From a virus, in the IMG/VR virus record IMGVR_UViG_3300003790_000067, positions 1 to 31,357 of that record: a DNA stretch of 31,357 nt. One strand, written 5' to 3'. Positions 1 to 31,357 of this stretch are shown in pieces. How positions within the stretch are numbered: the stretch's first letter is position 1; every line of letters begins with the position of its first letter. The position numbers and the translations under genes were made by a program. Below the pieces are notes generated by a model. It ran no database searches, was not told where the DNA came from, and saw nothing but the letters and a program-made list of their open reading frames with translations.

Positions 1-375
1 TCATGCAGCAGGCGCTGCGGAAAGGGTGCCGAGGGTCTGCTTGCGCCAGCCGCCGGCCTGTGAGCCGACAGCGTCGAGCAATTCGACGGACGCGGCCCAG
101 AGCTTGGAAGAAATCAGCCGCTTGTCATGGCTGACGCGCAGCATCGCCGTGGTGGCGCGCAGGTGGCGCAGCAGGTTGTCGAGCTGCTGCAGCCGCTCCG
201 CGCCGCGACAAGCGTTCGCCATGGCCATCGCCTCCAGCATCTCCACGCAGAGCGCATGGATCTTCTCGCCAAGGCTGCGCTTGAAGATGCGCGGCATCTG
301 CGTTTGCACGTCGAGCGCCAGCGAAAGCAAGTCGCAGCCGTGCTTGTAGATCGGGAGGTCGGTGTAAAGAGCCAT
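1..375 (-). CDS. avd: Avd-like accessory protein of a diversity-generating retroelement (four-helix bundle)
   Basis: A 124-residue, almost all-helical basic protein. Avd proteins form a barrel-shaped pentamer that binds the DGR reverse transcriptase and template RNA and is needed for mutagenic retrohoming. Visible features fit the Avd/four-helix-bundle family: an N-terminal LPIYKHGCDLL (residues 7-17), MPRIFKRSLGEKI (27-39), a helix with MANACRG (51-57), LRVSHDKRLIS (79-89), and a GWRKQ tail (109-113). It lies directly downstream of two lectin-like target genes with paired variable repeats, the usual DGR place for avd. The ATG at 375 follows the VR hairpin by about 20 bases, and no strong ribosome site is visible. 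Its stop codon is the first base triplet of the window, so the partner genes expected next (template repeat, reverse transcriptase) are outside. Family assignment is by pattern and context; a generic four-helix-bundle protein is the alternative. Confidence 0.82.
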   Translation of the reverse strand: MALYTDLPIYKHGCDLLSLALDVQTQMPRIFKRSLGEKIHALCVEMLEAMAMANACRGAERLQQLDNLLRHLRATTAMLRVSHDKRLISSKLWAASVELLDAVGSQAGGWRKQTLGTLSAAPAA

Positions 376-395
376 GGTTCAGAAAAAACTCGCGA

Positions 396-413
396 ACCGG
401 CGCGAGCGCCGGT
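396..413 (-). repeat. Hairpin just downstream of variable repeat A
   Basis: A perfect 7-bp inverted repeat (ACCGGCG / CGCCGGT) with a 4-base loop at 403-406 lies 7 bases beyond the stop of the distal target gene. DGRs typically carry a short GC hairpin or cruciform immediately 3' of the VR that stimulates target recognition; BPP-1 is the known example. Position, stem length and loop size match. It is followed in the transcript by a run of T (381-390 region), so it could also act as a weak terminator before avd. Confidence 0.7.
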
Positions 414-420
414 GAAGGGT

Positions 421-933
421 TTAAGCGGTCAAGAGGTCAAGTGGAATCGCGCGGCAGGCACGAACCCTGAGCTCGTCGTCCTTGCCGCTCCAGCAGCTGA
501 GGCCGAACTCGAAGACCTGGACGAAGGCGCTGAGGCGCGAGAGCTGCGTGCTGGTCCAATACCAGCCCTCTGTGCTGAAAAGCTCGGGTACGTTGGCCGC
601 AGCCGAGTTGAGTTCGCCGAGGCTTGGCAGGAACCAATCGGTGTGCCCGTCGATGCGCAGCTCGCGCACGCGCAGCGCAGCGGGGCACTCGGCGTCGGCC
701 ATCGCTTCGGTGTTGCCGCGGCCGTCGCTGCGGCTCTTGGCGCCGGCCACATCCTTACCGTATTCGCCCCACTGGCTGCGGAATTCGCCCGCGGCCGCGC
801 CGGACACGATTAGCGCATAGGGTGGCTGTTCAGCGTCGCCGACGCGCGGGGCGCGCAGGATCGCGGCGAACGTGCCGCCCTGGCCGGGGATGGTGGCGCC
901 GAAGGCCGGCAGGGTGATCGCATTGGTTTGCAT
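421..933 (-). CDS. DGR target protein A, C-type-lectin/DUF1566-like, with 3' variable repeat
   Basis: A 170-residue protein with a DUF1566/Lcl-type C-type-lectin fold. DGRHGNT-like text appears as SDGRGNTEA (69-77), followed by DGHTDWFLPS (95-104) and GWYWTSTQLS (123-132), ending in ELRVRACRAI (154-163). The last part is the variable region: residues L134, S135, V140, F143, L145, C147, S149, D153 and L155 differ from target B, while the framework residues (AFVQ, FE, W, GKD, RVRACR) are identical. All variable codons are NNC. There is no signal peptide or membrane segment, so any display would need to be on the virion or by another route. The start at 933 has a good ribosome site (GGAG, 6 bases upstream). 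Ligand unknown; DGR-diversified lectin folds usually bind varied partners. Confidence 0.85.
   Translation of the reverse strand: MQTNAITLPAFGATIPGQGGTFAAILRAPRVGDAEQPPYALIVSGAAAGEFRSQWGEYGKDVAGAKSRSDGRGNTEAMADAECPAALRVRELRIDGHTDWFLPSLGELNSAAANVPELFSTEGWYWTSTQLSRLSAFVQVFEFGLSCWSGKDDELRVRACRAIPLDLLTA
448..552 (-). repeat. Variable repeat A (VR-A) of the DGR
   Basis: This segment aligns without gaps to 1021-1125. The 18-nt arms at 535-552 and 451-468 are identical in both copies. In the 22 codons between (469-534), nine differ, at 13 nucleotides, always at codon position 1 or 2 and always in codons ending in C. Upstream of the block the two genes differ also at third positions (for example TAT/TAC), as ordinary paralogues do. 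The right arm AGGGTTCGTGCCTGCCGC (coding strand) is the place where the initiation-of-mutagenic-homing site is expected. Confidence 0.82.
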
Positions 934-970
934 GAAGTGCTCCGGTGGTTGGGAAAAAAAATTCGTGAAG

Positions 971-985
971 CGGCGTTCAGCGCCG
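971..985 (-). repeat. Hairpin downstream of variable repeat B
   Basis: Inverted repeat CGGCG / CGCCG with a 5-base loop (976-980), 17 bases beyond the stop of target B. The sequence just inside it (CGCCGGTGAAGGG on the plus strand) is shared with the hairpin after VR-A at 407-419, so both VRs have a homologous downstream element. The stem is shorter than the one after VR-A. Likely the same DGR homing-enhancing structure. Confidence 0.55.
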
Positions 986-1002
986 GTGAAGGGCTGAAGG
1001 TG

Positions 1003-1590
1003 TCAAGCGTCCAAGTGAATCCAGCGGCAGGCACGAACCCTGCGCTCGAAGTCCTTGCCGCCCCAGCCGCTGCTGCCGTGCTCGAAGTCCTGGACGAAGG
1101 CGCAGTTGCGCGAGAGCTGCGTGCTGCTCCAGTACCAGCTGCTCGTCTCGAAGAGGCTGGGCGCACACACGTAGGCCATCAGCAGATCCATGCGGCTGGG
1201 CAGATGGAAGTCGCTGTGGCCGTCGGCCTGGTATTCGCTGGCCCACTTGGCGGCGGCGTGGTCGCGACTGGCGGAGAGCAGCGCGTCGGTGTTGCGGCGG
1301 CCGTCGAGCTGGCTGCGTGCGCCGGGCACGTCCACCGAGGGGCCGAAGGCGAGGTCCTTTGCCTCGGTGGAGCTGAAGATCACATGCCGCGCCGGCAGGC
1401 CCAGCAGCGCGGGCTGCGTGCAGATGTAGTGCCCGCCCTGGCCGGCCCAGTATTTGCCACGCGCCGGCGGCGTCAGGTCGAAGGCGGATGCGACCGATCC
1501 ACTCGACAGAATATTGGTCACGTCGATCTGTTCGAGCGCCGATGACGGCAGTTGCAGGTTGATCGTGGCGTGCGCGATGTGGAGTTGCAT
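1003..1590 (-). CDS. DGR target protein B, C-type-lectin/DUF1566-like, with 3' variable repeat
   Basis: A 195-residue paralogue of target A. The N-terminal 90 residues are different (start MQLHIAHATINLQLP, with an AGQGGHYICTQ stretch at 49-59), but the DUF1566-like core is shared: ARSQLDGRRNTDALL (91-105), DGHSDFHLPS (123-132), SWYWSSTQLSR (151-161), RRVRACRWI (183-191). Variable positions relative to A are N162, C163, D168, H171, S173, G175, G177, F181 and R183. It is the first gene of the DGR in the direction of transcription, 69 bases after the early-left operon. The ribosome site before 1590 is weak (AAAGG, 6 bases upstream), and no convincing promoter is seen in 1591-1659. No signal peptide. 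Asn at 162 (codon AAC) may be an unmutated template position. Confidence 0.85.
   Translation of the reverse strand: MQLHIAHATINLQLPSSALEQIDVTNILSSGSVASAFDLTPPARGKYWAGQGGHYICTQPALLGLPARHVIFSSTEAKDLAFGPSVDVPGARSQLDGRRNTDALLSASRDHAAAKWASEYQADGHSDFHLPSRMDLLMAYVCAPSLFETSSWYWSSTQLSRNCAFVQDFEHGSSGWGGKDFERRVRACRWIHLDA
1021..1125 (-). repeat. Variable repeat B (VR-B) of the DGR
   Basis: The counterpart of 448-552, offset by exactly 573 bases. Framework codons are identical and the changes are confined to first and second positions of NNC codons. The last codon of the aligned block, just past the identical right arm, also differs (TGG here, GCG in A). Both copies are expected to be rewritten from one template repeat, which is not present inside the window. 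Confidence 0.82.
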
Positions 1591-1659: not shown

Positions 1660-2109
1660 CTACTGGTGCATGCGCGCGATGGAAGCCGTCATGGCTTCGC
1701 GCCTCTGCAGCGGTGTGCTGTTGCGCACCATTTCTTCGTAGACCTCGAGGCCGGCGGCCATGGCTTGCAGGCCGAGCCCGTCGAAGCCATAGCGCCCGTG
1801 CTTGCCGCGGATCTCGTCGCAGCGGATCAGGGCATCCCGCGCGGCAAGCATCGGGCCGACGCACAGCTCATCGATCTGCTCGGCGCGAACGATGCCGACA
1901 TTGATGGCGCCCGCCAGGCGGTCGAAGAGGTCGTCGTCGGTGCTGCCCTTGCGCAGATCGTCGAAGGCGCTGTGCAGCTCCGTCAGGATGTCGTCGCCGA
2001 GCGATTCGTCCATCGGCCGGCATGCGGCGATCACGGCCGCCCAGGTGGTGGGGTTCGGCGCGGGCATCGACATGCGGCGATGCGTGGCGCGGCGTTGGGC
2101 GCGGTTCAT
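1660..2109 (-). CDS. Conserved phage protein of unknown function, end of early-left operon
   Basis: A 149-residue, mostly helical soluble protein that I do not recognise. It begins with a very basic stretch (MNRAQRRATHRRM), then TTWAAVIAACRPMDE, a central acidic helix and a C-terminal LQRREAMTASIARM. The start at 2109 overlaps the dam stop codon by 4 bases (ATGA) and has a strong ribosome site (GGAGG, 7 bases upstream), which is why I reject the longer frame reaching 2238. It is the last gene of the coupled operon before the DGR. Possible roles (nucleic-acid binding from the basic tail) are guesses. Confidence 0.7.
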   Translation of the reverse strand: MNRAQRRATHRRMSMPAPNPTTWAAVIAACRPMDESLGDDILTELHSAFDDLRKGSTDDDLFDRLAGAINVGIVRAEQIDELCVGPMLAARDALIRCDEIRGKHGRYGFDGLGLQAMAAGLEVYEEMVRNSTPLQRREAMTASIARMHQ

Positions 2110-30826: not shown

Positions 30827-31357
30827 ATGACCCTCGAAGAAATCACCCGAGCGGCGATCGACCCGGCGCTCAAGTGGCTACCGCCGAAGATGGACAGCAT
30901 CGAGGCGCGTGTCGAGTTGCTGACGATCGGCTCGCAGGAATCCAAGTTCGAGCACCGGTGGCAGGTGCTGAGCGGCACGACGAAGAAGGGCCCGGCGCGG
31001 TCCTTCTGGCAAGGGGAGCAGGGCGGCGGCATGGTGGCCGGCGTCATGAACCACCAAGCCAGCAAAGACCTCGCGCGCGCGGCTTGCACGGCGCATGGCG
31101 TGGCGTTCACGACCTTGGCGGTGTGGAGCTCCATGGAGAACGACGACGTGCTGGCGGCGATCCTGGCCCGACTGCTGCTGTGGACCGAGCCGGGTGCGCT
31201 GCCGCGCGTGACCGACACCGAGGGCGCATGGCAGCTGTACCTGCGTGCCTGGCGTCCGGGTGCCTACGCCCGCGGCACGCCCGCGAAGCGCGCCCAGCTG
31301 CGCGCCGAATGGGAAGACCACCACCGCACCGTGCGCGCGTTCCTGAGGCTGCCGTGA
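30827..31357 (+). CDS. Putative cell-wall-degrading lysis protein (lysozyme-like, uncertain)
   Basis: A 176-residue protein that ends at the last base of the window. ELLTIGSQESKFEHRWQ (about 27-43) resembles the ES-containing start of lytic transglycosylase folds, and GPARSFWQGEQGGGMVAGVM (about 54-73) resembles the following GxxGxWQF block. YLRAWRPGAYARG occurs near the C-terminus. It has no signal peptide, fitting a holin-dependent enzyme. AAGGA is 6 bases before ATG 30827; ATG 30821 in the same frame overlaps the holin stop. A structural role is the alternative. No Rz pair is in the window. Confidence 0.5.
   Translation: MTLEEITRAAIDPALKWLPPKMDSIEARVELLTIGSQESKFEHRWQVLSGTTKKGPARSFWQGEQGGGMVAGVMNHQASKDLARAACTAHGVAFTTLAVWSSMENDDVLAAILARLLLWTEPGALPRVTDTEGAWQLYLRAWRPGAYARGTPAKRAQLRAEWEDHHRTVRAFLRLP

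Follow-up and report, generated by a model that had tools for sequence, protein, structure and literature searches.

The stretch of DNA analysed in this study (hereafter the window; 31,357 nt) very probably holds one half, the targets and avd, of a diversity-generating retroelement (DGR) in a phage taken to be a temperate siphophage of Comamonadaceae (Burkholderiales), the host group being assigned by kinship. Two neighboring target genes, T1 and T2, each carry a variable repeat (VR), and avd follows them (Table 1). The phage's own template repeat (TR) and reverse transcriptase (RT) probably follow immediately past base 1, and its DGR would be active. The DGR is of a known kind, as multi-target DGRs and DGRs with DUF1566 targets have already been published; added here are a lineage norm of at least two targets, an apparently old paralogous target pair, a missing third target, the placement of RT-15 RNA before the TR, and an early-operon setting.

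The window is the whole IMG/VR virus record IMGVR_UViG_3300003790_000067, which is linear. Position 1 falls on the avd stop codon (TCA on the plus strand) and position 31357 on the stop codon of the last ORF (TGA), and two kin records also have their ends at gene edges. That both ends lie at gene stops suggests computational boundary trimming of a provirus, not a true phage end. No RT or TR was found anywhere in the 31,357 nt, as a trimmed provirus or possibly a truncated element would show, and the neighborhood to the left of base 1 cannot be read from this record. Likewise, an Rfam scan of the window gave no match, RT-15 included; the window stops before the place of that RNA.

Table 1. Features of the cassette and its flank, in window positions.
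Feature	Position	Strand	Description
T1 target gene, upstream of the pair	1003..1590	(-)	ORF, 195 aa, Lcl_C/DUF1566-like C-terminus; orthologues in kin
T1 variable repeat (homologous to relatives' TR)	1024..1123	(-)	adenine-biased differences vs L004 TR
T1 hairpin	971..985	(-)	5-bp stem, weaker than relatives' 7-8 bp
T2 target gene, avd-proximal	421..933	(-)	ORF, 170 aa, Lcl_C-like; orthologues in nine kin
T2 variable repeat	451..550	(-)	adenine-biased differences vs L004 TR
T2 hairpin/cruciform-forming inverted repeat	396..413	(-)	7-bp stem, 4-nt loop CTCG
Terminator-like stem and T run in the T2-avd spacer, overlapping the T2 hairpin	388..407	(-)	terminator-like site search
avd, accessory variability determinant	1..375	(-)	124 aa; PF22296, phrog_3206
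Flanking early-operon gene outside the DGR	1660..2109	(-)	149 aa, function unassigned

The Two Variable Repeats Differ from the Template of Kin Almost Only at Adenines

As originally predicted, T1 (1590-1003), T2 (933-421) and avd (375-1) are adjacent and share one orientation, in this order on the minus strand. A codon alignment bore out the predicted near-identical 3' framework with altered NNC codons: T1 codons 156-190 equal T2 codons 128-162 at the nucleotide level, save for nine NNC codons in which the changes are confined to the first two bases. One more differing codon, GCG/TGG (448-450/1021-1023), lies just outside the TR homology. The VRs, at the 3' end of both targets, had been placed at 448-552 and 1021-1125, which proved accurate within a few bases (Table 1). 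The variable codons of the TR are mostly AAC, so that the first two codon positions vary while the frame and scaffold are kept.

The VRs were compared with the TR of L004, a relative whose Avd is 99% identical to that of the window, standing in for the window's own TR. We found that 14 of 29 adenines were changed in the T1 VR, as compared with 1 of 70 other sites (p = 2.6e-8), and that the T2 VR showed 16 of 29 and 1 of 70, respectively (p = 8.7e-10). Over both VRs, 30/58 TR-adenine sites differed vs 2/140 others, and the two non-adenine differences represent one T/C site, at which the TR of another relative, L005, agrees with the window. Pooling of 11 cassettes, in which two pairs were counted twice as L010 and L015 are one phage, gave differences at 324/774 adenines vs 8/1899 other sites. 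Between the window and its nearest kin, the VRs differ at 36-57% of TR-adenine sites (32-57% over the near kin compared), the NNC codons thus varying among related phages as a DGR would have them do, and at 0-1.5% of non-adenine sites, as compared with 7-17% in the rest of the gene. Conserved non-adenine sites beside variable adenine sites suggest repeated overwriting from a TR, unlike conventional divergence or gene conversion.

Relatives Carry the Template Repeat and Reverse Transcriptase Downstream of avd

The gene predicted to be Avd-like was confirmed as such by PF22296 (bAvd in Pfam; E 7e-12, above cutoff) and by phrog_3206, "Avd protein of DGR" (E 2e-23); a match to NF033474 (E 3e-12) fell below the curated cutoff. 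A search with Avd returned seven viral contigs and five bacterial chromosome loci, the latter in Polaromonas sp. OV174, Variovorax boronicumulans, Rhodoferax ferrireducens, a Rhodoferax MAG and Polaromonas jejuensis; three of these five are the viral contigs L006, L007 and L010, as judged from identical match positions. In close relatives, Avd is 82-99% identical to that of the window. Among 102 genomes of the genus of the Variovorax relative, Avd was found only in the genome of that relative itself, and it was absent from plasmid records at E<=1e-8.

Every near relative examined has the order targets-avd-TR-RT, with TR and RT directly downstream of avd, and an RT lies next to the TR in most of the wider relatives. 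In the two nearest kin, the TR starts ~180 bp and RT homology ~260 bp past the avd stop codon, and the TR core of L005 is CACGCAGAACTCGCGCAACAACGCCTTCGTCCAGGACTTCGAGAACGGCAACAGCAACTGGAACGACAAGGACAACGAGCACAGGGTTCGTGCCTGCCGC. An exact TR pattern scan over viral contigs, meant to find a longer record of the same phage, matched only the two kin already known. The RT almost touches the TR except in L007:6660-7450 and L010:6660-7790, where a gap of ~0.8-1.1 kb was observed. The RT of the kin has an RVT_1 domain with the motifs LPIGNLSSQ and YVDD, and the top match to its sequence in the PDB is 8ub7 (E 2e-39, "Reverse transcriptase"), presumably the BPP-1 DGR complex. PADLOC matches of the RT to defence-type RTs represent generic RT similarity and do not point to a defence system. 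The DGR reading of the original prediction was thus upheld by VRs that differ from the TRs of kin almost only at adenines and by a target-target-avd-TR-RT order in these kin.

The Rfam RNA family RT-15 (RF03018) scored above its gathering score in L005 (E 4e-43), L010 (E 3e-45), Cruim01 and Magia. The RNA fills the stretch between the 3' end of avd and the TR (L005:6359-6559, L010:6359-6556, L023:8563-8755 and L024:6340-6522), and seems to serve as the leader of the template RNA of the DGR. A limited literature search found no paper naming RT-15 RNA together with DGRs.

The Targets Are Paralogues, Probably Lectin-Like

The T1 and T2 proteins are ~45% identical over their aligned length, and orthologues of T2 with 66-91% identity occur in nine kin. 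Both match phrog_4245 (T1, E 6e-23; T2, E 1e-28) and, below cutoff, Lcl_C (T1, E 8e-6; T2, E 2e-4). A profile search matched the targets to 8q4e (E 2e-4), which we take to be the C-terminal domain of Legionella Lcl. In BFVD, the targets match DUF1566 proteins, and the matches include tail-fibre-like proteins (S74 peptidase, collagen-like). A Foldseek search of the T1 and T2 models against the PDB gave nothing at E<=0.001, the best weak match being a Bacteroides fimbrial protein (4eps, E 0.8). The description of the genes as lectin-like is therefore supported by sub-threshold Lcl_C/DUF1566 similarity, the 8q4e profile and BFVD, but not by a significant fold match in the PDB. Hydropathy revealed no apparent signal peptide or membrane segment in either protein (maximum Kyte-Doolittle values of 0.86 and 1.04 over 19 residues).

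Tandem target genes number three in L004, L005, L006, L007 and L012, and two in L008, L009, L010 and L014. The phage of L005 (G002) and the Polaromonas jejuensis prophage have an extra TR-matched target 6-9 kb upstream; these extra genes (L002:1309-1929; L015:838-1404) extend past the VR and are absent from the window. One phage may thus have up to four targets, and the nearest kin have three or four. For a census of cassettes, we searched one bacterial family with Avd and viral contigs with a target profile, added annotated phages, and kept cassettes in which a TR was present and the sequence upstream was long enough. Of the 28 usable non-redundant cassettes, some of which are close kin and not independent, 27 had two or more TR-matched targets. 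L066 and L044 were left out for an unreliable TR search (no Avd match, or an RT match far off), as were L052 and L030-L034 for too little upstream sequence. The sole exception is Magia, with one target matched and another potential one annotated in its record. The two-target form is the norm for the lineage of the window, not exceptional; for DGRs at large, about 13% are reported to have two targets (PMC10743442) and 28.6% multiple VRs (PMC6642488).

In a tree built from the target domain with the VR left out, the upstream genes of near kin and their avd-proximal genes fell into different supported groups, and position labels were far more clustered than when shuffled, although the tree is built on few columns and has many open forks. 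The separate groups and clustered labels suggest that the pair is old and did not arise by recent duplication in each phage, and the upstream and avd-proximal targets are, on this sequence comparison, probably old paralogues.

Hairpins and a Missing Third Target

A hairpin had been predicted after each target. The one after T2 (413-396), with its 7-bp stem and 4-nt loop, starts 34 bp past the TR homology and stands; the one after T1 (985-971) is weak, with a 5-bp stem. Stems after the targets of kin are mostly 5-8 bp, and the shorter hairpin could make T1 a poorer target. At 388-413, the retrohoming-type hairpin (413-396) overlaps a terminator-like hairpin with a T run (407-388). Terminator-like sites in the window are no more numerous than in shuffled sequences.

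A third target, T3, sits at the matching place in L004, L005 and L012 and is missing in the window. The start of the T2-avd spacer (376-428) is of the T2 type of the nearest kin (CCGCTTAA...GCGCT-CGCGCC), and its end is of the T3-to-avd type (TTTTTTCTGAACC). The simplest reading is that T3 would have been deleted between repeated hairpin/T-run motifs in the lineage of the window; its absence may possibly come from assembly collapse. Recombination also seems to occur between cassettes, as L005 is the closer relative in T1 and L004 in T2 and Avd.

The Cassette Lies in an Early Operon and Is Shared by Phages with Unrelated Packaging and Tail Genes

The plus strand of the window encodes the large terminase, portal, major head protein, tape measure and a J-like fibre; RepO and a Cro/repressor-like regulator are also encoded. 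Opposite the head and tail operon, a minus-strand run leads leftward from the regulator region (about 8.6 kb), includes adenine and cytosine DNA methyltransferases, and ends with T1-T2-avd. No integrase was found in the window, but one follows in L005, integrases are found in kin, and several kin are chromosomal prophages. The call of a temperate siphophage is thus supported by the gene content of the window and the integrases of its kin, although the window itself lacks an integrase.

When tested window genes were compared with seven relatives by tblastn, only avd, T1 and T2 matched in all; beyond the DGR genes, only a tape measure protein was widely shared. None of the window's head, packaging and tail genes tested had a match in G001, G002 or G004, and the terminase of G001 and G004 belongs to phrog_15, vs phrog_9 in the window. 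Recombination, SSB or nuclease genes neighbor the cassette in annotated phages, and its neighbors in Magia include excisionase and integrase. Homologues of the gene that precedes T1 (1660..2109) occur in phages without a DGR match in the flanking sequence examined, where other genes follow them. A target homologue in phage PMG1 (L025:5896-6384), and also in phage D3, is located just downstream of the cI repressor gene. Since it is shared across phages with unrelated packaging and tail genes, the cassette looks like a portable accessory module.

Discussion

By analogy with the Bordetella BPP-1 DGR, on which the following mechanism is modelled, T1 and T2 would be standalone binding proteins, each with a ~100-bp VR at the 3' end of its gene. 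The template RNA, consisting of a conserved leader (Rfam RT-15) and the TR, would be copied by the DGR RT with Avd, and adenines would be miscopied during this step. The resulting cDNA would replace the VR of either target, with the shared 3' end and the downstream hairpin as guides.

Two readings would deny the window an active DGR. There is a slim chance that the element is decayed, RT and TR having been lost and both VRs being fossils, as might be supposed from the absence of RT and TR from the record, the short stem of the T1 hairpin and the missing T3. However, the record starts exactly at the avd stop codon and ends exactly at an ORF stop codon, as trimming would give, and the VR frameworks are near-identical to the TR of kin while the adenine sites differ and Avd is intact. 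An ordinary tandem duplication with gene conversion and no DGR at all would account for paralogous genes with nearly identical 3' ends, but we consider it hardly credible, given that differences from the TR of kin fall almost only at adenines, the adjacent avd and the mere ~45% identity of the remainder of T1 and T2. Plain gene conversion without a DGR was ruled out by the adenine bias.

The role of the targets is harder to assign. The original prediction of a phage with two hypervariable binders holds as far as the two VR-bearing targets are concerned, whereas an Mtd-like tail role is doubted from the gene context. It is quite possible, though short of probable, that the targets are not tail tips but belong to a moron-like early-operon module of small lectin-like binders that is independent of any particular tail and may act, for instance, in lysogens or at an early stage of infection. 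The leftward early operon opposes the head and tail operon, and avd, T1 and T2 are shared by phages with unrelated head, packaging and tail genes, including a different terminase family in G001 and G004, with only the tape measure otherwise widely common. Cassettes in annotated phages adjoin recombination, SSB, nuclease, excisionase and integrase genes, the PMG1 target homologue comes directly after cI, and the gene flanking T1 also occurs in phages without a nearby DGR match. Against this, Mtd, the one well-studied phage DGR target, is a receptor-binding protein, most viral targets in several DGR clades bear tail-protein annotations (PMC8144416), and tail-fibre-like proteins are among the BFVD matches; moreover, an exported surface role is unsupported, with no signal peptide or membrane segment apparent, and genes for virion proteins need not lie in the late operon. 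We would give slightly less than an even chance to the reading in which T1 and T2 bind receptors while attached to the virion, as in BPP-1, and one phage displays two independently varied binders. In its favor are the parallel to Mtd and to further targets in phages (PMC8144416; PMC10743442), the lectin-like C-termini, and the differing host range of Bacteroides phages with DUF1566 targets (PMC8143477); the early operon on the strand opposite to the tail genes and the highly similar cassettes in phages with unrecognisably related head, packaging and tail genes argue against it. Unrelated tails and the early-operon place leave a tail-tip role unproven: the genomic context would speak against a fixed tail part, and precedent would speak for a receptor binder.

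We tentatively put forward, with more doubt than belief, that the DGR of this lineage serves as a portable module of the early operon and that its paired targets, no parts of the tail, act in recognition within or near an infected or lysogenic cell; the module occurs across phages with unrelated tails and has retained two old paralogous binders. If this is true, the DGR diversifies a phage-encoded recognition pair and not the receptor binding of the virion. Natural systems for directed protein diversification are few, and DGRs are one of them; over long evolutionary distances, this lineage has kept one template serving a fixed target pair, and its cassette moves between phages with unrelated tail modules. 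The neglected question of what phage DGR targets that are not obviously tail tips do, and why there are two of them, is thereby made testable, with ready-made comparisons in three- and four-target kin and in phages that have the same flanking gene and no DGR nearby.

Comparison with Known Systems

The DGR of BPP-1 (mtd-avd-TR-brt) resembles the present one in the order target, avd, TR and RT and in its adenine-directed VR changes, and 8ub7 is the best PDB sequence match of the RT of the kin. A hairpin after the VR is a further likeness (PMC3240598), although the loop in the window is CTCG vs the reported GRNA consensus. The window differs in having two targets, and its near kin three or four, that are standalone proteins of the Lcl_C/DUF1566 type (170-195 aa in the window), and possibly in the location of the cassette in an early operon opposite the tail genes. 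Closer in setting is the Burkholderia cenocepacia phage Magia (NC_070954), which has an Avd with 41% identity, an RT, RT-15 RNA and an annotated lectin-fold target in an early region beside recombination and integrase genes (PMC7883833); its targets have diverged, and one TR-matched target was found, with a further gene annotated as a potential target. The Pseudomonas phages Cruim01 and LPPA56 have two tandem TR-matched targets, avd and RT, with RT-15 in Cruim01, but their Avd is only 35% identical, their hosts are other ones, and their targets are annotated as hypothetical. The Bacuni phages of Bacteroides uniformis differ in having one target remote from the cassette, with no tandem pair reported. 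In the two-target gut-phage DGRs (tentaclins), a pair of target genes in the phage is likewise rewritten from a single TR (PMC10743442), but one target of that pair has its VR at the 5' end and a different architecture.
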